A DNA stretch of 64,000 nt. It comes from a virus. The notes under the pieces are model-generated. The model had not been told where the DNA came from. It ran no database searches and was given only the letters and a program-made list of their open reading frames with translations. Below are positions 7,248 through 50,144 of the stretch, piece by piece. A program made the translations under genes and the position numbers. Each line of letters begins with the position of its first letter. The stretch's first letter is position 1. The stretch covers positions 1 through 64,000 of IMG/VR virus record IMGVR_UViG_3300037089_000505; one strand, 5' to 3'.

Positions 7248-7469
7248 GTGGCACCCAGCCACTTCTATTTTGTTGTAAGTAGAATTGAAGGAGATGGTGA
7301 TATAGTTGCTACTGTTCTTGATGAAGGAAGAGGATGCTTTCCCGTCATTTGGAGTGGCCCTATATTTAGCGGTGATTACTGGCCCGCTACAGTAGTCGTA
7401 ATAGATAAGAAGGAAAGAACTAAAGTTGCTCTCAAAGGATTAATAGATGACGCCAGGAGAACAATATAG
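7248..7469 (+). CDS. GKWY/SH3-like mini-protein family member, start unclear
   Basis: 73 aa from GTG 7248. The same frame is open upstream and encodes ELNQLYKVEV, which aligns with FNQLYRLWI in the paralog at 7863, so the true protein seems to begin around 7221, inside the end of the previous gene. No ATG, GTG or TTG exists there. Either the 5' end was lost, a rare start is used, or translation enters by frameshift from the gene upstream. The C-terminus KVALKGLIDD matches the family's terminal helix. Confidence 0.45.
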   Translation: MAPSHFYFVVSRIEGDGDIVATVLDEGRGCFPVIWSGPIFSGDYWPATVVVIDKKERTKVALKGLIDDARRTI

Positions 7470-7866
7470 AGCAGACTTGAAGAGACAAAAGCAACATGAG
7501 AAGAGCGTGAAGTCCCAGGCCGACTGGGCTTTGAGACAACATAAGCAACATGAAAAATTTCTCAAGGACGTTAGACAACTGAAACTCGACACTCTCTACA
7601 AACCTATCCCAGACAGGAACAGCAGATGGTCTACATCAGGCTGGAGCTATTTTGTCGTGAGAGAAAGAAACATAAAACAAGAAACTCTGACCTTAGAGAT
7701 TTTAATGACTAACACCGCGTATGGGAACACCCATGCAGTAAGCAGCCGTTATATCGAAAGAAAGATCATATCTTTTAACGATTACAAACACTTACTGTCC
7801 ACTTTTGAGCGAGTTCTTAGCAAGAAAGAAAAAACAATGGTAGGGCTAAGAGGATTAATGCCATGA
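7447..7866 (+). CDS. Mini-protein family member with coiled-coil extension
   Basis: 139 aa. Residues 1-45 are a charged helix (KRQKQHEK repeated twice), followed by LYKPI and a beta-rich domain, and a terminal KEKTMVGLRGLMP helix as in the neighbours. A segment TNTAYGNTHAVS is nearly repeated in the gene at 8371 (YNTEYGNTHVIS). It overlaps the upstream member by 23 nt. Confidence 0.5.
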   Translation: MTPGEQYRADLKRQKQHEKSVKSQADWALRQHKQHEKFLKDVRQLKLDTLYKPIPDRNSRWSTSGWSYFVVRERNIKQETLTLEILMTNTAYGNTHAVSSRYIERKIISFNDYKHLLSTFERVLSKKEKTMVGLRGLMP

Positions 7867-8153
7867 GCATCAAAAAAGTCAAATTCAACCAATTATATCG
7901 TTTGTGGATCCGAGGCCCTAATAGTTCTTATTGCATAGTCAGATTTGTAGGTCGAAAAGACTTAAGCGAAGAAGTTATTTATTCTATTGAAAGAGCTGAC
8001 TTGTGGACGACACCCAAAAGAGTTTATGTCATGCGGGTCAGTCAAGGTAATTTTGAAGATCACTGGTTTCAAAGTCTGACGGAAGTTAAGACTGAAAAAG
8101 AAAAGACGCTCATCGCCCTTAAAACAGGTTTGTCTGAAAAGATAATTCTATAA
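7863..8153 (+). CDS. GKWY/SH3-like mini-protein
   Basis: 96 aa, ATGA overlap. FNQLYRLWIRGPNSSYCIV is the first beta-hairpin of the family, and EKEKTLIALKTGL is the C-terminal helix. It is one of four adjacent related genes at 7.2-8.4 kb. Function unknown. Confidence 0.55.
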   Translation: MSIKKVKFNQLYRLWIRGPNSSYCIVRFVGRKDLSEEVIYSIERADLWTTPKRVYVMRVSQGNFEDHWFQSLTEVKTEKEKTLIALKTGLSEKIIL

Positions 8154-8374
8154 TGATGATATTTTTTAGCAAAGAACTCAAAGGTAAAAGATACGTAGAT
8201 TGGTATATTCCATTACCTAAGGGTAAATATTTTAAGGTGACAGTTGGTCTATATAAGGAATATTTAGACACGAGAACAGTTGAAGAGCCACCTTATAGTC
8301 CAATACGAATTGCTAAAAAAGAAGATTTGCAATCTTGCATTAAGTCTATATTTGAGGCAAGGATGATATTATGA
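8153..8374 (+). CDS. GKWY/SH3-like mini-protein
   Basis: 73 aa. A KGKRYVDWYIP start and a CIKSIFEARMIL C-terminal helix match the family pattern (basic residues plus hydrophobic, Phe). It overlaps the previous stop by one base (TAATG). Function unknown. Confidence 0.55.
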   Translation: MMIFFSKELKGKRYVDWYIPLPKGKYFKVTVGLYKEYLDTRTVEEPPYSPIRIAKKEDLQSCIKSIFEARMIL

Positions 8375-13329: not shown

Positions 13330-13713
13330 TTAAGAAGTAGAATTCGGGGGCGTGCCGCTATAAGCTGAAGAAGTATAATTGCCGCCGCCCGTTAGCTGAT
13401 TATAGACACTGCTTGTAATGGCATAAGATCCTGTTGTAGTGGTTATTGGAAGTGCTGTCGTAGTAGCAGTAGTTGTAGTGTTACCATATGTTGTGTAATA
13501 AGCCATCATCTGTTTCCAGAACTTGCAACACCTCTTTTTTGGAAGCGTCCCTAAGACGTCGCATGTTTCTACATATTCAATCTTTGCTGTGGCACTGTAA
13601 TTAGAGCCAGCGCTAATGATCACATTCGTGGCTGTAGTTGGATCACAGAGTTTGAACTTACAATTATCGCAACTTCGTCCTTTCAACATATTTTTGACTG
13701 TTTCTTTGTCCAT
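13330..13713 (-). CDS. Cys-rich mini-protein fused to Thr/Ser-rich tail
   Basis: 127 aa. Residues 1 to about 68 are the family module (DKETVKNMLKGRSCDNC, an ETCDV Cys and RCCKFW). The remaining 60 residues are low-complexity Thr/Ser/Gly/Tyr (runs of TTTT), unlike other members. The tail may be surface-exposed or disordered. It ends the minus-strand operon. Confidence 0.55.
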   Translation of the reverse strand: MDKETVKNMLKGRSCDNCKFKLCDPTTATNVIISAGSNYSATAKIEYVETCDVLGTLPKKRCCKFWKQMMAYYTTYGNTTTTATTTALPITTTTGSYAITSSVYNQLTGGGNYTSSAYSGTPPNSTS

Positions 13714-14138
13714 TATTTTTCTTTCTTTTCAATCTTGTTGAAAGCTCCCTTTTCGATAAATATAAATTCGATTTCACCTTTTTTGTTTTTCACTTTCATC
13801 TCGGGTGTAAGGTCAAGCTCTAACATAGCCGACTGTCGATCTTTGGCGATTACAGTTTGACTAGTTAAGATCTTACACTCTTTTTTATCGACTGCGATAA
13901 CTTCATAGATAAACATTCTTTCTTCCATTCTCTCCTCCTTGGCGACTACAACTGGTGTTATCCATGTTGCCGGAATAATTACTGGCATTGGGATGTAAGC
14001 GGGCATTGGTATTGTGTAAGTAGGTTGATAGTAGTTAATATTATCCCAATATTGATACGTTGGACAATTAGTCCCCGTCCCACAATCTGAAACACCAATT
14101 GTGCAATTATTATCTGCAGTTAAAAATCTTGTACTCAT
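13713..14138 (-). CDS. Hypothetical fusion: low-complexity head plus small alpha/beta domain
   Basis: 141 aa. Residues 1-70 are Thr/Pro/Tyr/Ile-rich low complexity (PMPAYIPMPVIIP). The C-terminal 71 residues start MEERMFIYEV and look like a compact domain. An excellent AAGGAGGAGA site directly precedes the internal ATG at 13928 (minus strand), so the C-terminal domain can be made separately and is probably the ancestral gene. Unrecognised. Confidence 0.5.
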   Translation of the reverse strand: MSTRFLTADNNCTIGVSDCGTGTNCPTYQYWDNINYYQPTYTIPMPAYIPMPVIIPATWITPVVVAKEERMEERMFIYEVIAVDKKECKILTSQTVIAKDRQSAMLELDLTPEMKVKNKKGEIEFIFIEKGAFNKIEKKEK

Positions 14139-14617
14139 TTTATTTCTCCGTTAAGATCTATTAGAATATCTGACGTAGATGTCGTTGCGCCAGAAGCATT
14201 GTAGCTTGTAGTGCTAGTGATGGCGGTAGTGTTGGTTATTTGTGTCAAATTAATAGAATTACTAGAGGAAGAATAATTGACAGCCCAATTGTTAGCAGAT
14301 GGTATAGAAACTGAATTCACGAAAGCAGTATTGACTGACATTACAGTGGCGCTAGCCGAAGGAGAAGAAACTGCTAGCTGCAGAAGTCTCTCAAGTTCCT
14401 GAATCGCGATGTCTTGGTATTTGTTTTTGAAACTTTGCCAAACGTCTTTATCGATTTGAACTATACTTGTTTCACTCGATGTAGGTTTTTGATAATTCGC
14501 CATGATTTTTTCAAGAGTGTCTGAAGCATTCGGTGCCTTCTCTCTAAACTCTTCCCAAATTTTTTTATTAACTGATATCCCGGGTTTAATTCTTTTAGAT
14601 ATTAATGATCTTGCCAT
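14135..14617 (-). CDS. Protein with two ribbon-helix-helix-like segments and Ser/Thr-rich tail
   Basis: 160 aa, ATGA overlap with the next gene. ISVNKKIWEEFREKA (about 14-28) and VQIDKDVWQSFKNKY (about 52-66) each look like the strand and first helix of an RHH/MetJ-Arc fold and are followed by a second helix, so a DNA-binding role is possible. From about residue 85 the sequence is Ser/Thr/Asn/Ala low complexity. It could be a repressor with an appended tail. Confidence 0.5.
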   Translation of the reverse strand: MARSLISKRIKPGISVNKKIWEEFREKAPNASDTLEKIMANYQKPTSSETSIVQIDKDVWQSFKNKYQDIAIQELERLLQLAVSSPSASATVMSVNTAFVNSVSIPSANNWAVNYSSSSNSINLTQITNTTAITSTTSYNASGATTSTSDILIDLNGEIK

Positions 14618-15269: not shown

Positions 15270-16397
15270 TTATTCTTCTTCAGGTTCGGGCTGCCAAGGT
15301 AGATTCTTTATTATGCTATGATTTTGCTTTGGATCAAAACCTTTAGTAGGTGAGTATTTAATTTCTATCTCGTCGTCATAGCCGCCTTGCCCTTCTGGCG
15401 TATAAAAAGAGCACGAGAAATAACCGTTGTGATAATCAATACCGCCATCCATAATTTGTGGTATTATCCATTTTACTTCATCAACTTGAGGATCATACTT
15501 CATTAAGCCCGATCTTTCTTTACCGTAGGCCTCTTGAAGATTAAAGAAATAACCAGCAGCACCTAAGTTGTCGATATTTATATAGTTTTTCTTGCTTAGG
15601 GGTATTATCCATTTTTGAGTTTTAACGTTATAAACACCCTGTTTGTCACCATCGGTCATCGTGAAAAGATTATATTTTTCTAATCGCTCTACATCGTCAT
15701 ATTTAAATGGAAGAACTATTTTACCCGTTAAACTCATTATACCCGTATAGCCATTAGCATCAATTAATTCAAACCAAGTATCAAAAAAGTTTTTAGGATT
15801 CTTGTCTCTTATATAGCTTATATCACTATAAAGACCGAAAGGAATAGTCATAGCATTTGTAGATTTATTGTATACGCCGTTTTGACCTTTGTGATTTTCT
15901 ACATAGATAAATGGATCAAACCAATTTACTTTTCTAACCCAAACTTCATCGGCGTGTGATTTGAAATTTTTGTCGAATACTTCTTTAACGTCCTTCTTGT
16001 TTTTGAACCACCAACCGCCTACTGGTTTAGTAGTCTTTCCAAATTGTCTATACACAAACGGTAGAATCGTTTTACCAGTAACCGAATCTAGGACGCCAAT
16101 ATTGTCGTTTTGGTCTTCAGCAATTAAATATTTAGGGCCTGCGTCTTCATGAATTTCGTCGTATTTGATTAGGGTTAATTTTTTTCCCTGAGGCGAAAAA
16201 AGACCCCATCTATGATTTCTTCGACATAAAAAATAACGACTTGGATATTTAGATTTCCACTCTGCAAACGTATTGTCTAATACAGTTTGCTTTCCTTCCC
16301 TATTACGAAGACCAAATTCGCCCTCTTTTTGGAATGGCTGAACGCCGTATTTATTAGGTTCTCCGAAATATTTGATTGCTTCTAATAGTGTTGTCAT
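15270..16397 (-). CDS. WG-repeat protein
   Basis: About 375 aa. I use the ATG at 16397 because GGAG lies 9 nt upstream; a second in-frame ATG at 16412 is possible. Multiple degenerate WG (KWG) repeats are visible: HRWGLFSPQGKKLTLIKYDE, NIGVLDSVTGKTILPFVYR, YTGIMSLTGKIVLPFKYDD and KQGVYNVKTQKWIIP. WG repeats form small beta units used for binding. The N-terminus MTTLLEAIKYFG resembles the L-x-E capsid-targeting peptides elsewhere in the window. Role unknown. Confidence 0.75.
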   Translation of the reverse strand: MTTLLEAIKYFGEPNKYGVQPFQKEGEFGLRNREGKQTVLDNTFAEWKSKYPSRYFLCRRNHRWGLFSPQGKKLTLIKYDEIHEDAGPKYLIAEDQNDNIGVLDSVTGKTILPFVYRQFGKTTKPVGGWWFKNKKDVKEVFDKNFKSHADEVWVRKVNWFDPFIYVENHKGQNGVYNKSTNAMTIPFGLYSDISYIRDKNPKNFFDTWFELIDANGYTGIMSLTGKIVLPFKYDDVERLEKYNLFTMTDGDKQGVYNVKTQKWIIPLSKKNYINIDNLGAAGYFFNLQEAYGKERSGLMKYDPQVDEVKWIIPQIMDGGIDYHNGYFSCSFYTPEGQGGYDDEIEIKYSPTKGFDPKQNHSIIKNLPWQPEPEEE

Positions 16398-16711
16398 CTT
16401 TTGAAACTCCATACAGTGTATTCAAATATTATCTTTATCAGTTTCTTAGCTCTATTCTTGAGGTTATTCCAAATCCGTGGATCGTCTGACATTTTTATAA
16501 CTCGACCGTATCTAAAAGGTAAGTATTGGTCCGATAGTCTACGAAGCGGCTGGTTGCTATTAAGCGTCTTGGTATCTAGTAAATCTATTATGATCACAAT
16601 TCCAGAGCCCCAATCTTTTTCGTCATAACCCAAATAGAGCCAAATAGATTCAGGATGATGCGCAACTTTCCCACCCTTCCAATATATGATATCAAATGGC
16701 TTAAACTTCAT
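16394..16711 (-). CDS. GKWY/SH3-like mini-protein (minus-strand copy)
   Basis: 105 aa. The FKPFDIIYWKGGK start and RAKKLIKIIFEY C-terminal helix match the array family at 20-26 kb, especially the member at 22696 (YRPGNVIFWKQ). ATG-stop overlaps with both neighbours show it is part of the minus-strand operon. Confidence 0.55.
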   Translation of the reverse strand: MKFKPFDIIYWKGGKVAHHPESIWLYLGYDEKDWGSGIVIIIDLLDTKTLNSNQPLRRLSDQYLPFRYGRVIKMSDDPRIWNNLKNRAKKLIKIIFEYTVWSFKR

Positions 16712-17657: not shown

Positions 17658-17834
17658 ATGACCGCCACTAAAGAGCAAATCATAAATCTAATAATAGGAT
17701 GCGATAAATGCGGCCATCGAGGCACTTCAAAAACTGATGTTTGCAATCCGCCATATAGTGGTAAATGGCGCCCAATTACTAATTTGGGTTGTGAAAATTA
17801 TTTGGCGCCAAGTGATTGGCATAAGTCTAAATAG
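17658..17834 (+). CDS. Cys-rich mini-protein
   Basis: 58 aa from ATG 17658. ATKEQIINLIIGCDKCGH, a single Cys (DVCNPP) and GCENY match the family, although the final W is replaced by NY. Unusually for this block it lies on the plus strand, divergent from the minus-strand operon. Its last bases overlap the end of the convergent gene at 17827. Confidence 0.5.
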   Translation: MTATKEQIINLIIGCDKCGHRGTSKTDVCNPPYSGKWRPITNLGCENYLAPSDWHKSK

Positions 17835-18099
17835 TTTCCTTCTTATTAAACGCCCGCCTGATTATGATTTGCTTTGCCCGCCACAAACTGAAATGAGTAG
17901 GAAAGTCGCTAGCATAATAAAAATCGAGACTGTCGGTATCACCATAATTACGACGCCAAAAAATCCTTGGTCTGTGGCGTTCTTCAAATGACAAAAACCA
18001 AACCTTCTTAGGCGACTTTTTTACTACTATAAGCAAGTCATTATATGTGCCCAAAATAGTTCCAATTTTTAGATCTTCAAAATCGTATTGGTCAGCCAT
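17827..18099 (-). CDS. GKWY/SH3-like mini-protein
   Basis: 90 aa from ATG 18099. FEDLKIGTILGTYNDLLIV is related to the 'GQI' subgroup of the array (22998 and 25576), and AKQIIIRRAFNKK is the family C-terminal helix. The AAGATAAC element lies 3 nt before the start codon. Confidence 0.5.
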   Translation of the reverse strand: MADQYDFEDLKIGTILGTYNDLLIVVKKSPKKVWFLSFEERHRPRIFWRRNYGDTDSLDFYYASDFPTHFSLWRAKQIIIRRAFNKKETI

Positions 18100-18124
18100 A
18101 AAGTTATCTTGCATATTTTAGTAT
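18100..18124. promoter_or_regulatory. Divergent control element, copy 2
   Basis: AAGTTATCTTGCATATTTTAGTATATGG spans this spacer (the last bases enter the ATG at 18125). It shares TTATCTTGCATATTTT with copy 1 and again lies between a minus-strand mini-gene and a plus-strand Cys-rich gene. Confidence 0.4.
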
Positions 18125-18283: not shown

Positions 18284-18806
18284 CTAAATTGTCTTTACGC
18301 CATAAGGGCTGAAGGTTAGCTAAAGACCAACACTGCTTAAACTCAGGATCATTAGCGTCAGAATACTCCCACCAAGATTCTGGTATTTTGTGATCGATGT
18401 GCCATTTACCATAATTATCCCAAGACATTCCTGGTGTCCACAAATTTTCCAGATGCCGCTTTAATTCTTCTACCGTCCAATTAACTAACGTCTCCCACTT
18501 ACGACCCTTTTTATTTCCTCTTAACGACTTACGAATTGCGCTACTCAAGTTCTTTTCAAGTTGGTATTGAGGTTCAGAACGGCGAGCTTTCTTGTATTCA
18601 CGCTGGTATTTTCTGAATCTAGGCTCATTCCGATAAGTTTCAAAATAAATATTTCGGGCTGTTCTGTGTTCAGCTGATTTATTGTGTGCTCTTCTCTTAG
18701 CTTTCCTATGAGGTTGATTTTTACGAGCTCCCCATTTGATTCTATATTCTAACGTTTGTCGGTAAAGATGACGCGCTAAGACTTTTTCTTCTGGTGTTCT
18801 TTTCAT
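18237..18806 (-). CDS. HNH endonuclease (homing-type)
   Basis: 189 aa. A basic Arg/Lys-rich helical first half is followed by the HNH core: WHIDHKIPESWW, then ANLQPLWRKDNLAKGNR. This is the usual phage HNH layout with His-Asp-His, Asn and Lys-Asn-Asn. It is probably a free-standing homing endonuclease. It sits at the border between the minus-strand block and the neck module. Confidence 0.85.
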   Translation of the reverse strand: MKRTPEEKVLARHLYRQTLEYRIKWGARKNQPHRKAKRRAHNKSAEHRTARNIYFETYRNEPRFRKYQREYKKARRSEPQYQLEKNLSSAIRKSLRGNKKGRKWETLVNWTVEELKRHLENLWTPGMSWDNYGKWHIDHKIPESWWEYSDANDPEFKQCWSLANLQPLWRKDNLAKGNRLFPNVHIHNS

Positions 18807-18841
18807 ACTATTATGTAAAGATAATTATGCGGAGGCGATTT

Positions 18842-19546
18842 ATGGCTTACAACGCTATCAAAAATTTCATCATGGGAAGAATGGGTTATCCCAGAGTTAA
18901 AGTTTATATTACAGAAGAGCAGCTGGATGATTGCATCTGGGAAGCTATGAGCTATTACTTTGAATATAGGGATGATATAATCCGTGAGAGTTATATTTCA
19001 GGAACGGCATATGTCGGCGAATATACACTTCCTCCAACTATCGTTCCAAAATATATACATAACGTAATCTTTAAACCGACAGACCCCCTGTTCAGTTTAA
19101 CAGGAGTAATGCAAGACGTCTATCTGTTGTATTATTTACAGAACGCAGGCGGCGCCGCAAACTTCATCGTAGACTATTGGATGACGCTGTCCAACTATAA
19201 GGAATATGAACGTGTATTAGGAAACCAACCGCACTGGGATATAATTAATGGCAACGTCTTGAAATTAGACCCCACACCGTCTATTGACTTCCAAATTGGA
19301 ATTAGATATATGGCTTTACCCGACGAGACTACTATTGAAAACACAAGGTGGATTAGACTCTTCGCTTTAGCTTGTGCAAAATCTGTAGAAGGTGAAATTC
19401 GAGAAAAGTTTTCTACGCTTCAAGCTGGTAGTGGCGAGATTAGTCTAAATGGAGCAGCACTTAAAGCTGAAGGTGAAGTAGAAAAACAAAGACTCTGGGA
19501 TGAGAACTTTTCAAAACAGCTCCCGCTGGGTATGTTATTTGGTTGA
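18842..19546 (+). CDS. Neck protein, T4 gp13-like
   Basis: 234 aa from ATG 18842 with GGAGG at 18831. An N-terminal helix with VKVYITEEQLDDCIWEAMSYYFEY, and a C-terminal part with LFALACAKSVEGEIREKF and SLNGAALKAEGEVEKQ, follow the pattern of T4-like head-tail neck proteins. It forms part of the connector between portal and tail. In T4, gp13 is followed directly by gp14; here the gp14-like gene is 7.3 kb away. Confidence 0.65.
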   Translation: MAYNAIKNFIMGRMGYPRVKVYITEEQLDDCIWEAMSYYFEYRDDIIRESYISGTAYVGEYTLPPTIVPKYIHNVIFKPTDPLFSLTGVMQDVYLLYYLQNAGGAANFIVDYWMTLSNYKEYERVLGNQPHWDIINGNVLKLDPTPSIDFQIGIRYMALPDETTIENTRWIRLFALACAKSVEGEIREKFSTLQAGSGEISLNGAALKAEGEVEKQRLWDENFSKQLPLGMLFG

Positions 19547-19629: not shown

Positions 19630-20451
19630 ATGTTTTGTAAAATATGTGGGAAAGAATTTCCTAACAAAAAAACTCGGCGGGGCCCCAAAAAATATTGCTC
19701 TGTACAATGTACGAATAAGGATCGCAAAAACATTGGAAGCAGAAAACCAGGTAGATATAAAAAAGTTTTAGTTGAGCGCCATCATACTTGTATTTATTGT
19801 AAGAAAGACTTTTCTAATAGACGAAAGAAAGCTAAATACTGCTCTAAGCGATGTAGCGAGTTGGGCTGGAAAAAAAATAAACGCTCCTGCCCAATTTGTG
19901 GTAAGTCTGTAGTACGTAAACACGGCGAATCAACAACTCACGACAACAAACAAATTTATTGTAGTGTAGAATGTCGAGGTATCGCCGAACGAAAACCAAG
20001 ACCTAACTGTTTAATCTGTGGCGGTGAATGTAAACACTGGTATAGTAGAACTTGCTCTATGAATTGTCAAGCTGAATTCAAGCGCATATTCCACTTACTA
20101 CGAATTAAGAAGGCTTTGGCCATCGGCGTCCAGTTAAATCCCTTCTACAACTTAGACGCTTGCAAATGGTTTGAGCAGTATGATAAAGACAACAACACGA
20201 TCGGTAAATACGCAACTAATGGTGGCGAAGAGTTTGTAAAAGGCTATTGGCTTGATTATATCAATCATGACAAAAAGCTAATTATCGAATGGAACGAGAA
20301 GCAGCACTACAACAAAGATGGATCTCTTAGAAAAAGAGATATAAGAAAAAGAGACGACATTCTAAAGTCTTTTCCAGCCTACGAGTTCTGGTCTATCAAA
20401 GAAGACACAATGCAAATCGACAAGATAATTCTTAATGGCGTGGTTAGTTAA
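19630..20451 (+). CDS. Zinc-finger homing endonuclease, Vsr/PD-(D/E)xK-like
   Basis: 273 aa. Four finger motifs of the form CxxC...YC(S)xxC occupy residues 2 to about 140 (CKICGKEF, CIYCKKDF, CPICGKS and CLICGGE). The C-terminal domain has GYWLDYINHDKKLIIEWNE and a basic helix, matching the split pair at 14595-15202. It is likely a free-standing homing endonuclease that marks the left edge of the mini-gene island. Confidence 0.7.
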   Translation: MFCKICGKEFPNKKTRRGPKKYCSVQCTNKDRKNIGSRKPGRYKKVLVERHHTCIYCKKDFSNRRKKAKYCSKRCSELGWKKNKRSCPICGKSVVRKHGESTTHDNKQIYCSVECRGIAERKPRPNCLICGGECKHWYSRTCSMNCQAEFKRIFHLLRIKKALAIGVQLNPFYNLDACKWFEQYDKDNNTIGKYATNGGEEFVKGYWLDYINHDKKLIIEWNEKQHYNKDGSLRKRDIRKRDDILKSFPAYEFWSIKEDTMQIDKIILNGVVS

Positions 20452-20635
20452 TGACTCTGACGGATATTATATACTCTACAAAACAGCAGGAGCCAAATCC
20501 GTCGCAGAAAGATATGATATTGCACCCGGTTATTTTTCAAAGAAACTAGTAAGCCCAAATACAATTTTTGAAACTGAGGGACTAAGACCCATCCACCGCT
20601 ATGATATTATAAAATTGGTTTGGAGTAAAGTGTGA
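20435..20635 (+). CDS. Mini-protein, left end of tandem array
   Basis: 66 aa. The start lies within the last codons of the endonuclease gene, 17 nt overlap. It has little of the GKWY box, but the C-terminus YDIIKLVWSKV is of the family type. It overlaps the next gene by 4 nt (GTGA). Confidence 0.45.
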   Translation: MAWLVNDSDGYYILYKTAGAKSVAERYDIAPGYFSKKLVSPNTIFETEGLRPIHRYDIIKLVWSKV

Positions 20636-20949
20636 AAATTAGATTTTTCAAATGGTATGAGAGAGAACACGGCGAATTACCAGGGATAGCGCTTGGAACA
20701 ATAAAAGACTATGCTATTAACAACGTATTTTCAAAAGATCCTAACTCATCTGATATACTTGCAATATGGTATAAAGATGGCAAATGGCGTCGAGGCGATA
20801 CATGGGCGTGGGGCGCTGTAGTTCCAAATCTCACTCGTGAATTAAATATGAATTTTAACTTAGTTAAGCGGCCGTCTAAATTAGACTATATAGATTTTAG
20901 ATCGGCAATTAAGAAATTGTTTAACAAAGAATATTTGCTTAGAAAATGA
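20632..20949 (+). CDS. GKWY/SH3-like mini-protein (array)
   Basis: 105 aa from GTG. It starts KIRFFKWYEREHGELPG, and the terminal helix is AIKKLFNKEYLL. Several Trp residues lie in the middle (KWRRGDTWAWG). Soluble, function unknown. Confidence 0.5.
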   Translation: MKIRFFKWYEREHGELPGIALGTIKDYAINNVFSKDPNSSDILAIWYKDGKWRRGDTWAWGAVVPNLTRELNMNFNLVKRPSKLDYIDFRSAIKKLFNKEYLLRK

Positions 20950-20976
20950 AAATTAGAGATATTTTTAGGTAAAAGA

Positions 20977-21237
20977 ATGACACTCAAAAAATGGCGTTGG
21001 TATAAAACGCTCAATATGTATATCATGCCTACAAAAATAGTTAAAGCAAAGGGCACAGAGTATTTTGACTACTTTGAATATAACGATGAAAAGGAACGAT
21101 TGAGATATTTCGTAAATATACCTGATGATCAATTTTATGGTATAGATAACAGAGATTTTTTTGGTCGTTGGAAATTAACCACTAAAATTCAACATAAAAT
21201 GATAAAGACAGCATTTAGACCGAAGACGCACTATTAA
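20977..21237 (+). CDS. GKWY/SH3-like mini-protein (array)
   Basis: 86 aa. KKWRWYKTLNMYIMP at the start and KMIKTAFRPKTHY at the end. The first strand resembles LGRWYKDEYNEYTMP of the distant copy at 48383, so the two are probably close relatives. Confidence 0.5.
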   Translation: MTLKKWRWYKTLNMYIMPTKIVKAKGTEYFDYFEYNDEKERLRYFVNIPDDQFYGIDNRDFFGRWKLTTKIQHKMIKTAFRPKTHY

Positions 21238-21249
21238 GCGGAGGACACA

Positions 21250-21561
21250 ATGGAACTAGGTAATTTATTCAGAATGTTAGGCGAAGAACTAAATGAGGCT
21301 TTGGCCCCACAAGTTCACATGGCCAGACGGCGAGCAATGAAATCACAACTGGAAACAGATAAGCCAGGGACTGAAAGTGAAAGCAATGGACAATGGCAAT
21401 ACACTTCTTCGCAAGGTATAAAAGTCACAGAGCTAAAAGATGACACCTGGGAAGTTGAATTTGAGGGTAAAAAAGAAAAAGGTGATTTTGAAACTATCCT
21501 CAAGAAGGCAAAGGCAGCCTCTAAACTACACTATAGTCGAAGAGAATCCAAACTAAGCTAA
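21250..21561 (+). CDS. Hypothetical protein with capsid-targeting-like N-terminus
   Basis: 103 aa with a GGAGG site. MELGNLFRMLGEELNEA contains L-x-E sites (LGE, LNE/A). The rest is a hydrophilic linker followed by a small domain (IKVTELKDDTWEVEFEGK). It is not a member of the GKWY family, although it sits inside the array. Candidate internal head protein. Confidence 0.5.
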   Translation: MELGNLFRMLGEELNEALAPQVHMARRRAMKSQLETDKPGTESESNGQWQYTSSQGIKVTELKDDTWEVEFEGKKEKGDFETILKKAKAASKLHYSRRESKLS

Positions 21562-21605
21562 ATGTATTTTCGTTATAAGTTGTGGATTAATACGCAAGGT
21601 CAAAA

Positions 21606-21884
21606 GTGAACGTAGAAAAATATCAAGTTGGTAAGTGGTATGCAACTGATAGTGCGCTCTCCATCCAAACAGGACTTCCATCAGGCAATGGTTTTTATTG
21701 GATTTTAATAGGAAATGGGCGTCATGTAGTCATAGATGCTCGTAAAATAAACATAACCTCTAACCCTCAATTGTATGGGGCAAAACTTACTAAATATAAT
21801 AGGCTACTAACTATTGCTGAGGCGTCTGCAGCGAGTAAGGAATTTGTTAAGCGTTTGTTTAAAGAAGAGTTAATTAAGATATGA
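21606..21884 (+). CDS. GKWY/SH3-like mini-protein (array)
   Basis: 92 aa from GTG. YQVGKWYATDSA is the clearest GKWY box. FYWILIGNGRHVVI forms the next strands, and FVKRLFKEELIKI is the C-terminal helix. ATGA overlap with the next member. Confidence 0.55.
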   Translation: MNVEKYQVGKWYATDSALSIQTGLPSGNGFYWILIGNGRHVVIDARKINITSNPQLYGAKLTKYNRLLTIAEASAASKEFVKRLFKEELIKI

Positions 21885-22186
21885 AATTCGAGCATCCATA
21901 TAAACAATATTTGGGTAAGCTGATAATCAACCCAGATAAAAATTGGTATTATCCGACGCGAATTTTAGCAACTCAAGGTACTATTAAAAAAGAAGGCGGT
22001 AAAGATTTTATTAGATTTTTCGGAATCAACGATAGAGCTTTAGCCACATTCCCAAATGTGGCCGCCCCAAGAGTTTTTAGCTTAGCTAAAGAATGGGCAA
22101 CTACAAAAGTGATGCCCATTACAGAGTCTTATTATCACCTTATATTAAAATCTGCTTTCAATAAGGATAATAGTAAATGGCTATAA
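21881..22186 (+). CDS. Mini-protein, PYxQYxGK subgroup (array)
   Basis: 101 aa. FEHPYKQYLGKLIINPD defines a subgroup with 22434 (FKKPFEQYVGR) and 23826 (FKKPYSQYSGK). The terminal helix is LILKSAFNKDNS. Coupled to both neighbours by short overlaps. Confidence 0.55.
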   Translation: MKFEHPYKQYLGKLIINPDKNWYYPTRILATQGTIKKEGGKDFIRFFGINDRALATFPNVAAPRVFSLAKEWATTKVMPITESYYHLILKSAFNKDNSKWL

Positions 22187-22437
22187 AGTACCATGCATGG
22201 GTTTGGACTAGTAAGAATTGGAAAGATAGTTTCAGGATAGATAAGGTTGAACATCTATACACTAAAAAGGGAACGGCCTATATAAAACTACTAGAGTTAA
22301 TTAAGACAAACACTAAAGAGTTTCCTTTCTCAAGTCCAGGTTATGGAGTAATCAGCACAGAAGAAGTATCACCTAATCGCTTGTTCAAAACATTAGATGA
22401 GGCGCGACACCTTGTTATAAGAGAAATAATTCCATGA
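22177..22437 (+). CDS. Mini-protein, FxIDK subgroup (array)
   Basis: 86 aa. KYHAWVWTSKNWKDSFRIDK defines a second subgroup shared with 23274 (DSFCIDKIS) and 23573 (NQFCIDELE). The C-terminus is HLVIREIIP. Confidence 0.55.
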   Translation: MAIKYHAWVWTSKNWKDSFRIDKVEHLYTKKGTAYIKLLELIKTNTKEFPFSSPGYGVISTEEVSPNRLFKTLDEARHLVIREIIP

Positions 22438-22709
22438 CAGAACCACTAAAGTTCAAAAAACCATTCGAACAATATGTGGGTCGAACTCTTGTAGATATAG
22501 AAGCAGCCCATGGTAAAATCTATCTAGTCAAATATCTATCTAAGAAAGATCCCAGTAACTTAGATAGAAAAGGCTATTTAGGTGTAGGCTATAATTCTGA
22601 AATAGAAATAAGAGAGTTTTGGTTTCATGATGGCCTGTATTATTTAAAACCGATTAGCTATGACAATAAAAAAGAAGTAGTGAGAGCAATTTTCAATGAA
22701 GCTGAATGA
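22434..22709 (+). CDS. Mini-protein, PYxQYxGK subgroup (array)
   Basis: 91 aa, ATGA overlap. FKKPFEQYVGRTLVDI at the start and EVVRAIFNEAE at the end. Overlaps the next start by 14 nt. Confidence 0.55.
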   Translation: MTEPLKFKKPFEQYVGRTLVDIEAAHGKIYLVKYLSKKDPSNLDRKGYLGVGYNSEIEIREFWFHDGLYYLKPISYDNKKEVVRAIFNEAE

Positions 22710-23001
22710 ATTTATAAAAGTCTCATCATTTTCTAAGTTCCCTGAGGCTAAAAAAAGATATAGGCCGGGTAATGTTATATTTTGGAAACAGAAGCCCGAT
22801 TTCTATAATTGGTATATTGTTAAAGACGTGGACGAACTTAGTATAAATGGTGTGTATATATCGATAAGTATACCCGGAGGACCATCTTCAGAAACGATTC
22901 CACTTTTCAAAGACGATACTGCATTAGAGTCAATTGGTGAAGATGTAAAAGTTGTAAATAAACATCATCTAATTAAGGGTTTGTTTGGGGATATAAAATG
23001 A
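22696..23001 (+). CDS. Mini-protein fused to capsid-targeting-like peptide (array)
   Basis: 101 aa. MKLNEFIKVSSFSKFPEAKK is an N-terminal addition of the M-K-L-x-E type. It is followed by the family domain (YRPGNVIFWKQ) and terminal helix HHLIKGLFGDIK. It is the one array member with a putative packaging peptide, linking the two classes. Confidence 0.55.
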   Translation: MKLNEFIKVSSFSKFPEAKKRYRPGNVIFWKQKPDFYNWYIVKDVDELSINGVYISISIPGGPSSETIPLFKDDTALESIGEDVKVVNKHHLIKGLFGDIK

Positions 23002-23270
23002 ACTTCAAAGATGTAAGACCCGGACAAATTTTCGAATACAATATGGTTTATAATACTGAGCATTTATTGATATTGAGTAAAGAAAAAAATAAGCTGGGCA
23101 TAACTATCGTCAACTGTGTTTCTGAAGCGGATGGTACTTTTGAGTTTTTCGACCTAGATAAAGATAGATGGTCAAAAGAGAACTACGAATTAATAGTAAA
23201 CATAGAAGAGCTGAGAGAAAGAAGAAGAGATTTCATATACAACAGTTTTGAACAAAGAGATGAAGTTTAG
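22998..23270 (+). CDS. Mini-protein, RxGQI subgroup (array)
   Basis: 90 aa, ATGA overlap. FKDVRPGQIFEYNMVYNTEH is nearly repeated in 25576 (FEEIRAGQIIEHNKTYYTEW), which shows duplication within the array. The C-terminus is RRRDFIYNSFEQ. Confidence 0.6.
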   Translation: MNFKDVRPGQIFEYNMVYNTEHLLILSKEKNKLGITIVNCVSEADGTFEFFDLDKDRWSKENYELIVNIEELRERRRDFIYNSFEQRDEV

Positions 23271-23273
23271 TAA

Positions 23274-23576
23274 ATGGTAGGTTTACAAAAATTGAAATAC
23301 TATGTAAATTTTTGGGGCGGGGATGAGTGGCAGGGCGTGTGGGATAAAGAGGTTCCAACAGATAGTTTTTGTATAGATAAAATTAGCTCGCGTTACTTTA
23401 GCGAATTTAGTTCTAATGTAGAAATAGTAGAACACGTAGTATATTATGCTACAAGAAATACAGATTCGCCAACTAACGAAGTTGGTGATAAAGTTGCTAT
23501 CCGCAACAAGGATCCAAACTTGTTTGATAGTTTAGAAGACGCTAAACACCACGTCATAAGAGTATTCCTCAAATGA
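23274..23576 (+). CDS. Mini-protein, FxIDK subgroup (array)
   Basis: 100 aa. LKYYVNFWGGDEWQGVW, then DSFCIDKISSRYF, and HHVIRVFLK at the end. It follows the previous gene by 3 nt and overlaps the next by 4. Confidence 0.55.
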   Translation: MVGLQKLKYYVNFWGGDEWQGVWDKEVPTDSFCIDKISSRYFSEFSSNVEIVEHVVYYATRNTDSPTNEVGDKVAIRNKDPNLFDSLEDAKHHVIRVFLK

Positions 23577-23836
23577 CAAAATACGGTGTCTGGTTTGAAA
23601 ATGATACGCTCAATCAATTTTGCATAGACGAATTAGAAGTAGACCCAAAATATAACTCATATAACTTTCAAGGAATTTTCATTAGAAACATATTGGAAAC
23701 TAAACGTATGAAGGAAAACTCAGATCGACCAAAGAAAGGATCAAAAATGGGCTGGGAAAATTATATGAATCTATTTAAGTCAGTAGGAGAGGCAAAGGCT
23801 TTTCTTATCAAAAAGGCTTTTAGAAATGATATTTAA
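23573..23836 (+). CDS. Mini-protein, FxIDK subgroup (array)
   Basis: 87 aa, ATGA overlap. TKYGVWFENDTLNQFCIDEL at the start and AFLIKKAFRNDI at the end. Close relative of the preceding gene. Confidence 0.55.
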   Translation: MTKYGVWFENDTLNQFCIDELEVDPKYNSYNFQGIFIRNILETKRMKENSDRPKKGSKMGWENYMNLFKSVGEAKAFLIKKAFRNDI

Positions 23837-24113
23837 AAAACCGTATTCACAATACAGTGGTAAGTGGTATAAGAGGACTGATGTAGAAGAAGATATTGTC
23901 TATTATATAGTAAGCGGCTATGAAGCGAAGGGTCATATATCAGATTGGCCACGACCCTGGAGAATGGTAGTATTAACAAAAGGCCAAGATTATTACTCGT
24001 CTAAAATGACTGTACATATATCACAAAAAGATTTACGCAAATATAATCCGGAAACAAATGATAAGGCAAGAGTACTAAAAACAATATTCGGGGAAGGTTG
24101 GAGAAGTGGATAA
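23826..24113 (+). CDS. GKWY/SH3-like mini-protein (array)
   Basis: 95 aa. FKKPYSQYSGKWYKRTDVEE unites the PYxQY and GKWY boxes in one protein, so the two subgroups are one family. Terminal helix RVLKTIFGEGW. Confidence 0.6.
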   Translation: MIFKKPYSQYSGKWYKRTDVEEDIVYYIVSGYEAKGHISDWPRPWRMVVLTKGQDYYSSKMTVHISQKDLRKYNPETNDKARVLKTIFGEGWRSG

Positions 24114-24645
24114 TAAGAGATCATTAAGAAGAATACCCGCACCTGGAGCTGATGTAAAAAAAATTTTACAACACTTGAAATCTCAGGGAGTTGTTCGAAC
24201 AAACTCTAAAGATGGTGATGCAGCAGCTGAGCAATTGATCAAAGATGGTTACATAAGCGATGAGAATATAGTAACTAGAACAGATCAATTTACCTTACTA
24301 ACTAATTTGATTCATGATGCAAAAATATTAGAAGTAACTAAGCTGATAGACACTGTCCCTAAACACAAAATAGACGATTGGCTTTGGAAACTCGACAGAT
24401 ACAAATACAGGAAATACCCGGCCACATCTATAGCCATAGAAAAGCTAAAAGATAGGAAAGTAGACAAGTTTGCCAAGCTAATTACTTTAATAAGAAATAG
24501 AAGAGAATTGGATATGACAGGCCTAATAGATACAATCCGACGCCAAGAGATAGGTGCTTGGATTGAGAGACTAGAAAAAGGATACAATAGTCTACCTTAT
24601 ACAGCAGTTGCTATTGCAAAATTGAAAAACAGAAGAGGATTCTAA
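24106..24645 (+). CDS. Helical repeat protein inside the array
   Basis: 179 aa from GTG. Two copies of a unit of about 57 residues are seen: ILEVTKLIDTVPKHKIDDWL, then YRKYPATSIAIEKLKDRK, and ELDMTGLIDTIRRQEIGAWI, then YNSLPYTAVAIAKLKNRR. An alpha-helical repeat of this kind usually serves protein binding. Not a GKWY family member. Confidence 0.55.
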   Translation: MDNKRSLRRIPAPGADVKKILQHLKSQGVVRTNSKDGDAAAEQLIKDGYISDENIVTRTDQFTLLTNLIHDAKILEVTKLIDTVPKHKIDDWLWKLDRYKYRKYPATSIAIEKLKDRKVDKFAKLITLIRNRRELDMTGLIDTIRRQEIGAWIERLEKGYNSLPYTAVAIAKLKNRRGF

Positions 24646-24894
24646 GTGGGCAAGATTTTTTATGAGCCACCAACAAATAATTACTTTGAAGCTTGGGACC
24701 TTTACAAAAACAATAACAAAGATATACTAAGAATTGCATATGACCCAGAATCGGATAATTTAGATGCTTTAACTCTTCAAGGCGATGCAGAAGAAGAGCC
24801 GGCTAAACCAGCCACTGAGGCACAGCTACAAAAACTTATAAGAATGATCTTTAATGTAAAAAGTATATATAGGGAGCGGGAAGAAGATGAGTAA
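24646..24894 (+). CDS. Mini-protein (array)
   Basis: 82 aa from GTG immediately after the previous stop. YFEAWDLYKNNNKDILRIAY forms the beta part, followed by an acidic Pro/Ala linker and the family helix LIRMIFNVKSIY. The acidic tail is unusual in the array. Confidence 0.5.
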   Translation: MGKIFYEPPTNNYFEAWDLYKNNNKDILRIAYDPESDNLDALTLQGDAEEEPAKPATEAQLQKLIRMIFNVKSIYREREEDE

Positions 24895-25114
24895 TAACAT
24901 GTATGATATTTTGAACGAGTGGGAAGAATTTACAACAGTGAGTGGTAAAATTCCCCATAAACATGGTTACAAAGTAGATGATAAAGGTGATGGTAAAACT
25001 ACCAACACAATTAGTGAAGGTGAAAAAAAATCACCCAAACATATTCATGAAATAAAAATGTGGAAGGCATTAGCTGTGGGTGGCGATAACCACACTCATC
25101 AAATAAAAATATGA
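24887..25114 (+). CDS. His-rich small protein
   Basis: 75 aa. HKHGYKVDDKGDGKT, then HIHEIKMW and NHTHQI repeat an HxH pattern typical of metal-binding trimeric phage structural motifs. The N-terminal YDILNEWEEF has an L-x-E site. Not a GKWY family member. Confidence 0.5.
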   Translation: MSNNMYDILNEWEEFTTVSGKIPHKHGYKVDDKGDGKTTNTISEGEKKSPKHIHEIKMWKALAVGGDNHTHQIKI

Positions 25115-25368
25115 CGATGTATTACTACAGCAAAGACCAACCCGGAAAGTATGTAGAACTAACTTGGGTAATGTATAAACCTAATGGAAGTTCTTTGTGG
25201 GTAAGAGTTAACTACGCGACCTACAATTTAGTTTATACTTGGGTGAATGTGTCTACTGAAAAGCCTGATATGGACAAGATGACTGAAATTGAAGCCAGAA
25301 AACTAATGAAACTGATATTTAAGATTAAAAAATTAAAGCAGCGGGAAATCAAGAAATATGAAAGTTGA
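25111..25368 (+). CDS. Mini-protein (array)
   Basis: 85 aa, ATGA overlap. PGKYVELTWVMYKPNGSSLW, then YTWVNVS, and the C-terminal helix LMKLIFKIKKL. Basic tail. Confidence 0.5.
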   Translation: MTMYYYSKDQPGKYVELTWVMYKPNGSSLWVRVNYATYNLVYTWVNVSTEKPDMDKMTEIEARKLMKLIFKIKKLKQREIKKYES

Positions 25369-25579
25369 AGGTAAGTGGTATACACATGAATCAACTAATG
25401 CAATAGCCTTTGCAATAGGTCCAATAAGTTTAATGACTGTAGGTCGCCGATCAATATGGATTTCTGCAATGCAGGAAGATTTTTATAAAGTATGGACCCA
25501 AATTCCTTGGGATAAATCTGGAAGTAAGTATAGTCATCATTTAATTAAGAAAACATTCATAGCAAAGATAATTATATGA
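25358..25579 (+). CDS. GKWY/SH3-like mini-protein (array)
   Basis: 73 aa, the shortest full member: VEGKWYTHESTNAIAF at the start and HHLIKKTFIAKIII at the end. It is a good minimal definition of the family. Confidence 0.6.
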   Translation: MKVEGKWYTHESTNAIAFAIGPISLMTVGRRSIWISAMQEDFYKVWTQIPWDKSGSKYSHHLIKKTFIAKIII

Positions 25580-25836
25580 ACTTTGAAGAAATTAGAGCCG
25601 GTCAAATTATTGAGCACAATAAAACTTATTATACAGAGTGGTTGTTCGTATTAGAAAGAAAAAAGAATTTGATTTGGACTTTGAAAGATACAGGTGATGA
25701 CATAATAGAACGTGTAATAATTAGTAAATTAGTTTGGGATGAAGATCATAGAAGTGATGAAATTTTGGGTAATAAAGAAGAAGCCAGCGAAAGAAGAAAA
25801 GACTATATCGTTTTTATGTGGAATAGTCGACTATGA
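25576..25836 (+). CDS. Mini-protein, RxGQI subgroup (array)
   Basis: 86 aa, ATGA overlap. FEEIRAGQIIEHNKTYYTEW closely matches the member at 22998, and RRKDYIVFMWNSRL closes it. Confidence 0.6.
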   Translation: MNFEEIRAGQIIEHNKTYYTEWLFVLERKKNLIWTLKDTGDDIIERVIISKLVWDEDHRSDEILGNKEEASERRKDYIVFMWNSRL

Positions 25837-26128
25837 ATTATGAGGGTAAGTGGTATTCTAATTTACTAGGTAAGCCAGAAGAACTATCTTTTGTATTAAG
25901 GGCCGTTCCTGGTAAGGCGCAACCTCACCCGCCGAACGCGGCGCTAAAGAAGATTGGATCAATTTAGAAATGTTATATCTTACTAGAAAATATGTAGCGA
26001 TAACAAAACAGGTAATCGTTGAAAAATTTCTATTGAGACCATTAAAGGGCTATGAAATTGATCGGCCCAAGCAGATGCTCATAATCAAGCTTTTCAACAA
26101 ACTAGAATTGAATAGAATGTATTTTTAA
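25833..26128 (+). pseudogene. Frameshifted GKWY mini-gene at the right end of the array
   Basis: The ATGA-coupled frame starts MNYEGKWYSNLLGKPEEL and stops at 25967 after 44 codons. Another frame, open from about 25950, continues EDWINLEMLYLTRKYVAI and ends MLIIKLFNKLEL, the family helix, at 26128. A single frameshift within the GC-rich stretch around 25915-25950 explains both. It is therefore a broken member, or two fragments, next to the right-hand endonuclease. Confidence 0.6.
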
Positions 26129-26138: not shown

Positions 26139-26861
26139 ATGAAGCTATGTAGGACCTGCAACAAAGAGTTACCGAAAAACAGAAAACTCTATTGCTCTAA
26201 TAACTGCAAACGGCATGAGCGCAAAGAGTTATTATGTAAAGTCTGTGGTAAATCTATTCCCATAAAAAGAAAACGAAGAACAACTTTTTGTTCTGAGGAA
26301 TGTCATCAAAAATCTTGTAGAGGCCCTGGCAATCCCATGTATGGTAAGGCAAGCGCTATGAAAGGGAAACCTGGTGCAATGCTTGGCAAGAAACATAAAA
26401 TTAGCACTATTGATAAAATGAGTTTAACGCGCAAAAAACAATGGAGTGATGCTGAATTTAGAAAAGTTATGATAGATAAATTAGCAAAGGGTAGGGGCAA
26501 CTCTAGACCAGAGTTAAAAGTTAAAGAAATTTTAGATAATTTGGGTATAACCTATAAAAGAGAAAAGCTTGAGAAAAAGTATCTATATGATTTTTACATT
26601 CCAATTAAAAATATATACATAGAAGTTAATGGCGATTTTTGGCACGCCAATCCTAACAAATACATGGCTGACTCTGAGTTGTCCTTTCCGGGCTACGGTA
26701 AAATAAAAGCTAAACACCTTTGGGACAAAGATAAAAAGAAAAGAGAATATGTAGAAGGTTTAGGCGCCAAGTATGTTTGCATTTGGGAATCAGAGTTGAA
26801 AGACAAAGATGCGAACATACTATTAACAGAGAGGTTAAATCATGCCGGATTTTCCATTTGA
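26139..26861 (+). CDS. Homing endonuclease with NUMOD3 motifs and Vsr-like domain
   Basis: 240 aa. Two N-terminal zinc-finger motifs (CRTCNKEL and CKVCGKSI with following CS/CSEEC) are followed by NUMOD3-type DNA-binding segments (GNPMYGKAS, GAMLGKKHK). A C-terminal Vsr/EDxHD-like nuclease domain follows: YLYDFYIP, IYIEVNGDFWHANP and YVCIWESEL. This architecture is known from phage free-standing homing endonucleases. It marks the right edge of the island, next to the gp14-like gene. Confidence 0.8.
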   Translation: MKLCRTCNKELPKNRKLYCSNNCKRHERKELLCKVCGKSIPIKRKRRTTFCSEECHQKSCRGPGNPMYGKASAMKGKPGAMLGKKHKISTIDKMSLTRKKQWSDAEFRKVMIDKLAKGRGNSRPELKVKEILDNLGITYKREKLEKKYLYDFYIPIKNIYIEVNGDFWHANPNKYMADSELSFPGYGKIKAKHLWDKDKKKREYVEGLGAKYVCIWESELKDKDANILLTERLNHAGFSI

Positions 26862-27390
26862 ACTATATGACCCAGAGAATAATTTTGAATTAGAGTTATT
26901 TGATCTTGTGGATCAGGAAAGAATGGCAATTCAAGGTTCACCTCTTTTTATTTGGGCATTTGATTTAGCAGCAACTAGGCTATCTAACGACGAAGCAGAA
27001 ATTGGGATTCCTGATGAGGGCTTAGATTTGAATACTTTATACGGCGAAGCTTTACCCGAGCACATGGTTTTCCACGGACCTTTTGGTCCCATCAAAGGCG
27101 CTTATATAACTCCTACGTGGACACAAGATTTAATGGCGTTCGGTATTACAGAGCCAGAGGAGATAAACATAAAATTCAACAAGAATCAACTCATCACATT
27201 ACTAGGTCGACCTTTCATCCGCGGTGATGTCCTTAGAACTTTCCATTTGAAGTATTATATAGTAGAAGACACTTATGTAACAGAAGAAACAGTCTTGTGG
27301 AACTACATTCACTTGAATGTCATAGCTAGAAAAGTAGATCAGACGCAATTGAATCTAACTTCGGTTCCGTCCAATGCAGCAGCAGAATAA
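26842..27390 (+). CDS. Neck protein, T4 gp14-like
   Basis: 182 aa, overlapping the endonuclease by 20 nt. Position (between gp13-like and gp15-like genes), length and the pattern of a short acidic N-terminus followed by beta-rich segments (HGPFGPIKGAYITPTW, and IKFNKNQLITLLGRPF) suit a T4-like neck protein. The assignment rests partly on synteny. Confidence 0.55.
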   Translation: MPDFPFELYDPENNFELELFDLVDQERMAIQGSPLFIWAFDLAATRLSNDEAEIGIPDEGLDLNTLYGEALPEHMVFHGPFGPIKGAYITPTWTQDLMAFGITEPEEINIKFNKNQLITLLGRPFIRGDVLRTFHLKYYIVEDTYVTEETVLWNYIHLNVIARKVDQTQLNLTSVPSNAAAE

Positions 27391-27683
27391 TGTTTAAAAT
27401 ATATTGCAGTAGAAGTAAAAGTGGCAGCTTCAGGTGGGCCTATTTGACGAAACGTGTTAATACAAAAGAAGGTTATTACATCAGCTATTTAGCTATCGAA
27501 GGTCCTTTGGTTAAAGCTTCTTTTACTGATATTAATCGGCCCGACCGCTGGAACAGCTGGAATCAAAATCACTTTGAAGATATGTTTGCTCGGCCAGATG
27601 CTTACGGCGGCAGCCTAGAACAGTTGGATATGAAGGATGAAAAGACATTGAAACGCATCGTAAAGAAAATTTGGAAAAAATAA
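27390..27683 (+). CDS. Mini-protein, possible family outlier
   Basis: 97 aa, one-base overlap with the gp14-like gene. FRWAYLTKRVNTKEGYYISY and the terminal TLKRIVKKIWKK resemble the array proteins, here inserted within the neck module. Unknown function. Confidence 0.5.
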   Translation: MFKIYCSRSKSGSFRWAYLTKRVNTKEGYYISYLAIEGPLVKASFTDINRPDRWNSWNQNHFEDMFARPDAYGGSLEQLDMKDEKTLKRIVKKIWKK

Positions 27684-37075: not shown

Positions 37076-37081
37076 TATACT

Positions 37082-37585: not shown

Positions 37586-37597
37586 AGATAGGAAAAT

Positions 37598-37783
37598 ATG
37601 TGGGACGAAGTTTCTGTTTGGGAAAATGAGGGTGGTTTTAATCGCGAGATTGAAAATCATGGCTCGAAAGAATTAAAAAAGCTTCTAAAAACATTTGAAA
37701 AAATGACACCAGAAGAATATAGAATTTTGCATCAAAAAGCTTGTGAGCTCGAAAAAGAGGACCCGAGTCCAAAAATAATATGA
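37598..37783 (+). CDS. Hypothetical 61-aa protein
   Basis: Acidic, helical, with a TATGTGGG start after ATAGGAAA. It overlaps the next gene by 4 nt. Unrecognised. Confidence 0.5.
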   Translation: MWDEVSVWENEGGFNREIENHGSKELKKLLKTFEKMTPEEYRILHQKACELEKEDPSPKII

Positions 37784-38190: not shown

Positions 38191-38258
38191 GACAAACAGC
38201 ATATATCATACAATATATTAGTGTGATTAAAGCATTAAAAACGTAAGGAGTAAAAACA

Positions 38259-48367: not shown

Positions 48368-48370
48368 AGT

Positions 48371-48382: not shown

Positions 48383-48664
48383 ATGGTTAAGCTTGGCCGC
48401 TGGTACAAAGACGAATACAATGAATATACAATGCCTCTCGTTGTTGATATACTGAAAGATAAACTAACTGCTATTATTTCTTTACCAGATACTAGAAACT
48501 CAGACTCTGAAAAACTTAATTACATTTTAACAGATAGATACACCGACACCTTCGGCCTAATGATAGGTGAGATGCCAAAACTACAATCTAAAAGTTTCTC
48601 TAGAAAATTGCCCAGAAAGACAATGCGAAAGGCACTCAAAGCTATATTTACGGGGAAAGCGTAA
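48383..48664 (+). CDS. GKWY/SH3-like mini-protein (distant copy)
   Basis: 93 aa. VKLGRWYKDEYNEYTMPLVV matches the array member at 20977, and TMRKALKAIFTGKA is the family helix. It lies 23 kb from the array, so the family is dispersed as well as tandem. Confidence 0.6.
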   Translation: MVKLGRWYKDEYNEYTMPLVVDILKDKLTAIISLPDTRNSDSEKLNYILTDRYTDTFGLMIGEMPKLQSKSFSRKLPRKTMRKALKAIFTGKA

Positions 48665-48686
48665 AGATAAATATAAGGAGACTCTC

Positions 48687-49276: not shown

Positions 49277-49284
49277 GAGTTAAT

Positions 49285-50138: not shown

Positions 50139-50144
50139 TAATTT

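Follow-up and report, generated by a model that had tools for sequence, protein, structure and literature searches.

Small genes between gp13 and gp14 of T4-like phages encode unlike proteins that share a C-terminal tail

Between the gp13-like and gp14-like neck genes of the T4-like phage recorded as IMGVR_UViG_3300037089_000505 (143,947 bp; G000 in counts) lies an array of small genes (20435 to 26128), the products of which have several unlike bodies and share one C-terminal tail. Unless another source is named, positions refer to the window, which is the first 64 kb (64,000 nucleotides) of this record. The common feature of the array is, judged by sequence, the tail [LI][IV]KxI[FW], a predicted short amphipathic helix. 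In the undescribed clade of T4-like phages to which the record belongs, the gp13-gp14 junction is an exchangeable cassette; an earlier note on the window had recognized neither the position of the array between these two genes nor the conservation of this position in relatives. The tail may be a docking tag, with the head core as its most likely partner.

The array consists of approximately 20 tightly packed small open reading frames (ORFs) on the plus strand. Seventeen of them agree with the earlier description of a tandem array of 17 mini-genes, when 25833 to 25967 and 25970 to 26128 are counted as one frameshifted gene, and three genes of other kinds (21250, 24106 and 24887) are interspersed. 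The frameshift at approx 25.96 kb, which splits the last gene, is also present in the near-identical sister record 3300037091_000310 (99.99% identical, three differences in 22.9 kb and none in the array). Adjacent genes mostly overlap by 4 to 14 nt, and a few are separated by gaps of up to 44 nt. Matches to the T4 late promoter TATAAATA were no more frequent than by chance, and the array has none.

All members had been assigned to a single GKWY/SH3-like family with a first beta-hairpin in common, which was not borne out at the level of sequence. A full-length profile built from half of the array recovered 4.4% of the held-out half at E<0.01, and iterated searches recovered only subgroups, namely FxIDK (nine members in six phages), RxGQI, YYY and GKWY, besides singletons. 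On this basis the array appears to be composed of at least four or five small interleaved families. In profile-profile comparisons, GKWY aligned with RGQI and with FxIDK only in the last 16 to 17 columns and RGQI with FxIDK only in the last 14 columns, with no strong score in any of the pairs, so that only the C-terminal tail generalizes. Scans of 36 members against Pfam, PHROGs, NCBIfam and PADLOC gave noise-level matches only, no match was obtained for one GKWY member by tblastn against phage records, and profile searches with members against PDB sequences were likewise negative.

The basic-hydrophobic tail ending in Phe, which the earlier note had also proposed, was found again by counting. 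Within the 60 to 140 aa proteins of the 144-kb contig, the tail pattern occurs 22 times in the last 10 residues versus approximately two times per 5-residue bin elsewhere; the regular expression used for counting was kept simple on purpose, so that it overlooks degenerate tails and lets in some false positives. The position logo over 73 tails reads L/I-I/V-K-x-I-F. A 9-residue motif learned unsupervised from the G000 tails placed 15 of 40 held-out tails of relatives above the threshold, compared to 6% of other tails (Mann-Whitney p=9e-7). Within the array itself, split-half discrimination of the tails was modest (area under the curve 0.70 versus 0.51 for random genes). A gp68 counterpart was left out of the tagged proteins, since its G001 tail (FVNKIF) is missing from L029.

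The main rival to a docking tag is a structural role of the tail as the last helix closing a small SH3- or chromo-like domain, with common descent of all members, bodies diverged beyond recognition and no targeting. We regard this as possible, leaning towards doubtful. Two of at least five groups were modelled with AlphaFold, and both the GKWY representative (L033:3335-3625, pLDDT 72) and the FxIDK representative (22177, pLDDT 83) were predicted to consist of a beta-meander and, behind it, a C-terminal helix, which is consistent with a barrel closed in this way and makes an SH3-like fold possible for some groups. In Foldseek, the PDB structures closest to the FxIDK model were Tudor/chromo barrels, in which such a helix belongs to the fold; these matches were weak (E >= 0.24), and Foldseek gave no significant one. 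Tudor, chromo and KOW SH3-like barrels thus resemble the FxIDK model in the meander and the C-terminal helix, but differ in that neither a significant structural match (best E 0.24) nor a Pfam or PDB sequence match links them to it. In the GKWY model, moreover, helix and linker are of low confidence. The same tail also ends WG-repeat proteins, which have a different fold (five in the relative G001, ending DFY[KN]LIKG/SL/IF; the one copy scanned matched PF14903 with E=7.5e-34), and is therefore not tied to one fold. Profile comparison finds the tail and nothing of a barrel, whereas a fold core normally also keeps residues of the strands, and the number of residues following the tail Phe varies from 0 to 20.

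Relatives were located via UvsX and the neck genes, and ten distinct phages were compared. In all ten, the gp13-gp14 interval contains exactly one core gene, with AIxKLKxRRG[YF] or a similar sequence at the C-terminus of its product, together with 1 to ~17 tagged genes, depending on the phage. The two neck genes are adjacent in T4, KVP40 and phiM12, and no comparable tagged cassette was seen in the neighbourhoods in LR756511, SRB7757 and phiM12. Strictly tagged proteins were encoded by 18 of 45 non-core small ORFs in the gp13-gp14 cassettes of relatives compared to 3 of 92 elsewhere (T4, KVP40 and two other T4-like regions; p=8e-8). Along G000, 23 of 56 small ORFs at 15 to 28 and 109 to 127 kb are tagged, in contrast to a single one, which looks false, among 135 at 28 to 109 kb. 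In G001, tags were found on 23 of 101 small ORFs on the head/neck side and on none of 22 on the replication side. Even without any loading function, the cassette, which is hypervariable and present throughout the clade at a junction that T4, KVP40 and phiM12 keep closed, would be a defined site at which to search for new host-directed phage proteins. The core gene of the window phage (24106 to 24645) contains a doubled repeat of approximately 60 aa (179 aa versus 61 to 96 aa in relatives); gp41-type helicases, too, were among the matches of its iterated profile. Mini-genes with LIKxIF tails form a second array, missed earlier, which is located outside the window at 115.9 to 120.4 kb of G000 (L003:15904 to L004:437), near a ribonucleotide-reductase-like gene.

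Since several unlike bodies carry one tail, the tail might bind one common partner and bring many different small payload domains to it. This partner would, with less certainty, be the prohead core (gp22-type scaffold), and the payloads would be built into the head and then ejected with the DNA, as are the T4 internal proteins by means of an N-terminal capsid targeting sequence (CTS). By this analogy, a docking tag directed to the head core is a serious candidate, although we would stop short of calling it probable. More tentatively, the LIKxIF helix would constitute a second, C-terminal head-loading code, with which one particle carries and injects dozens of interchangeable small effectors, encoded in banks at the gp13-gp14 junction and elsewhere; injection is plausible only from position and from the analogy with the T4 internal proteins. 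Should the tail prove to be a loading tag, any protein ending in it would be predictable as virion cargo, dozens of orphan phage genes would become candidate injected effectors, and a short peptide would be available for loading foreign proteins.

G001 encodes a gp21-type S77 protease, portal, terminase and gp23 (protease, gp23 and portal recognized by profile), as well as an acidic ORF in gp22 position, the assignment of which is by position and acidity only. Genes with an N-terminal MKLxEF or MKLNEFLNEA, resembling MKTYQEFIAEA of T4 IPII, are found in the same genomes, and the MKLNEFLNEA-type N-termini are taken as conventional targeting sequences. The N-terminal pattern is matched by 3 of 85 tail-bearing ORFs. 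CTS-like N-termini (MKLxEA/MKLNEFLNEA) are present at 48989, 49285, 16701 and 32776 of the window and at 30021, 14222 and 8768 of G001; the bodies behind them are unrelated and include a cupin (G001 14503).

Several observations weigh against loading into the head. One gene (22696) carries both the N-terminal and the C-terminal tag. The cleavage motif [LI]xE is not enriched near the tail (0.62 versus 0.51 per last 40 residues), and genes with the N-terminal tag are not significantly closer to genes with the C-terminal tag (p=0.09 and 0.45). The FxIDK tail lies inside a confident helix (pLDDT ~95, residues 71 to 80), which may simply pack on the barrel. The enrichment on the morphogenesis side partly restates the clustering of tagged genes, the record is devoid of the head gene cluster, which places the phage's own scaffold outside of it, and the tagged proteins are known here from genes alone, none of them from a particle. 

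A shared short docking motif on variable bodies would fit any common partner in the producing cell, be it the host RNA polymerase, the sliding clamp, the ribosome, a phage enzyme or the neck itself, and the payloads might then be an unpackaged bank of host-directed inhibitors. Tiny, fast-changing phage genes are often host-directed, and the position between gp13 and gp14 would also suit a neck-associated role. Docking to such another partner is nevertheless unlikely: tags are nearly absent from 28 to 109 kb, where genes for host takeover are expected, no match above noise to known families or defence-related models was obtained, and none of these partners is singled out. A role in counter-defence, suggested in the earlier note, is conjecture, and no family match points to it.

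A described counterpart of the tagged mini-gene bank was not found. Encapsulin cargo-loading peptides are short C-terminal peptides which send diverse proteins into an HK97-fold shell; they differ from the array tail in sequence and are a functional analogy only. In T4, the CTS carries divergent small proteins into the head, one of which, IPI, inhibits a restriction enzyme after injection (PMC9026906). IPI, IPII, IPIII and Alt resemble the array products in being small and divergent apart from a short amphipathic signal at one terminus (PMC9026906), in belonging to the same broad phage type with gp21, gp22 and gp23, and in their fast turnover between relatives. The T4 CTS is N-terminal, comprises 10 to 19 residues and is cut by gp21 at [LI]xE, whereas the array tail is C-terminal, not evidently cleaved and found in gp13-gp14 banks of up to ~17 genes. 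Phage SPN3US harbors a 20-member paralog family of head proteins, mostly encoded by consecutive genes (family B: gp83, gp138-154, gp161 and gp237; PMC5694885). The protease of this phage has been proposed to bear a packaging signal at its C-terminus (PMC7411985). Family B resembles the array in its approximately 20, mostly consecutive paralogs (PMC5694885). Family B proteins were detected in heads by mass spectrometry and are interrelated by PSI-BLAST, while the array groups share only the tail and are known from gene sequences.

The tail might also be a by-product of translation coupling, its codons holding the ribosome-binding site of the next overlapping gene. This is very improbable, and a ribosome-binding-site origin of the LIKxIF tail was rejected by the distribution of spacings. 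The motif is located 4 to 16 nt before the next start in just 14 of 70 cases, the gap exceeds 10 nt in 26 of 70 cases, including genes without an overlapping downstream gene, and the last genes as well as minus-strand members keep the tail. Coupling does look true for a second type of array, here called type B (genes at G001 52168 to 54200 and 7248 to 7866 of the window). Type-B arrays were found at 7248 to 8153 of the window and 52168 to 54200 of G001 (L027:4817-6849, eight genes), both after the ortholog of window gene 6610. Their common end is LKGL(V) (KxxTKLxLKGL; KEKTxxxLKGL at 7248, 7447 and 7863), and its codons, AAAGGA or AGAGGA-like, lie 6 to 9 nt ahead of the ATG at which the next, overlapping gene starts, so that translation coupling accounts for at least the final K/R-G-L. 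Among the additional copies of the array listed in the earlier note, those at 8153, 16394, 17827, 27390 and 48383 carry the LIKxIF-type tail, but 7248, 7447 and 7863 are of type B. At the same place, type-B copy number differs between relatives.

Members of the same subgroup recur along the array and relatives have tandem copies of their own, which supports repeated local duplication of interleaved subgroups. Young tandem copies are the WG copies (69 to 78% identical) and two FxIDK copies in L026, which form a clade with 100/99 support. The array copies in the window phage (median identity 24%) are old, and copies other than those of the sister record are saturated. An HNH-like gene (19630) and a Vsr-like gene (26139), both homing-endonuclease-like, border the array. 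The banks would grow by tandem duplication and exchange, possibly with help from the endonuclease-like genes at the borders. Dedicated machinery, as implied by the multi-gene diversification system that the earlier note had considered, was not seen: a diversity-generating retroelement would be expected to include a reverse transcriptase, and no PF00078 match was found in G000, which is an incomplete record. Modular bodies with a common end and endonuclease-like genes at both borders could also be explained by a tail that serves as a DNA-level anchor for recombination and body exchange, the peptide itself having no role. This has hardly any likelihood, as conservation is at the level of residues, the aligned tails disagree at most of their variable positions, and the members (~24% identical overall) are too diverged for homologous recombination via an 18-nt stretch.

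A profile scan identified the window phage as a T4-like myovirus with a gp13-like neck protein (phrog_211), tail sheath, tube and baseplate hub. Further ORFs of the window look like replication genes, among them gp46/47, UvsX and a gp41-type helicase. The start of the record lies shortly after the place that gp23 occupies in relatives, and neither gp23 nor the large terminase was recognizable in its 143,947 bp; it is therefore incomplete. A scan of the genome contigs for hints at the host gave none. The genes of the array, its borders and the dispersed tagged genes of the window are listed in Table 1.

Table 1. Genes of the gp13-gp14 cassette and further tailed mini-genes in the window.
Feature	Position	Strand	Evidence or remark
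gp13-like neck protein (head-tail adaptor Ad2), upstream cassette border	18794..19546	+	phrog_211 E=9.7e-15; orthologs 66% identical in relatives
HNH endonuclease-like gene, directly upstream of array	19630..20451	+	phrog_1271 HNH endonuclease E=2e-15
Mini-gene, tail DIIKLVW	20435..20635	+	
Mini-gene, tail AIKKLF	20632..20949	+	
Mini-gene, tail MIKTAF	20977..21237	+	
Untagged array gene, N-terminus MELGNLF (MKLxEF-like)	21250..21561	+	
GKWY group, tail FVKRLF	21606..21884	+	
GKWY/PYxQY group, tail LILKSAF	21881..22186	+	profile link to G001 GKWF tandem
FxIDK group, tail VIREII	22177..22437	+	AlphaFold pLDDT 82.6 (beta-meander and C-terminal helix predicted)
PYxQY group, tail VVRAIF	22434..22709	+	
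Mini-gene with N-terminal MKLNEFI and C-terminal LIKGLF	22696..23001	+	
RxGQI group, degenerate tail FIYNSF	22998..23270	+	
FxIDK group, tail VIRVFL	23274..23576	+	
FxIDK group, tail LIKKAF	23573..23836	+	
GKWY group, tail VLKTIF	23826..24113	+	
Cassette core gene, C-terminus AIxKLKxRRG[YF], repeat unit doubled	24106..24645	+	once in each of ten phages
YYY group, tail LIRMIF	24646..24894	+	
Untagged array gene	24887..25114	+	
YYY group, tail LMKLIF	25111..25368	+	
GKWY group, tail LIKKTF	25358..25579	+	
RxGQI group, degenerate tail YIVFMW	25576..25836	+	
GKWYSN group, frameshift-split 25833-25967 / 25970-26128 (tail MLIIKLF)	25833..26128	+	intact ortholog at same place in G002
Vsr-like endonuclease gene, directly downstream of array	26139..26861	+	PF03852 E=3e-4, below curated cut-off
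gp14-like neck gene, downstream border	26842..27390	+	position and orthologs 61-65% identical; no Pfam match; weak phrog_10008
Tagged mini-gene after gp14, tail IVKKIW	27390..27683	+	
Tagged mini-gene, tail LIKIIF	16394..16711	-	
Tagged mini-gene, tail IIRRAF	17827..18114	-	
Tagged mini-gene, tail CIKSIF	8153..8374	+	
GKWY-group mini-gene, tail ALKAIF	48383..48664	+	
Three type-B mini-genes (7248, 7447, 7863)	7248..8153	+	first two: final K/R-G-L codons resemble ribosome-binding site of next gene

Several other genes were encountered in the window and in relatives. A 75-aa ORF (43652 to 43879) is similar to the N-terminal propeptide region of gp23 (LTKWKPFL ... LLDNQEKYM), with no gp23 body following. 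The portal gene of G001 (36211 to 39345) contains a large insertion similar to an HNH endonuclease (intein-like). The gene at 57057 to 58289 encodes a PARP catalytic domain (PF00644, E=6e-23) and a WGR domain, a possible phage ADP-ribosyltransferase. Upstream of gp13, two minus-strand genes (13713 to 14617) with the motifs MxxKxKPGIxIxxxxWxxFKE... and ...ExExIFxExGxF... keep their order in nearly all relatives. A dispersed small family of putative zinc mini-proteins, starting with K-x-x-[VT]-x-x-L-L-K-[DG]-x-x-C-x-x-C, is encoded at 2829, 3010 and 13330 of the window, at L001:5277, L002:15082 and L004:8034, and at 46891 to 51624 of G001, where it also occurs in tandem.

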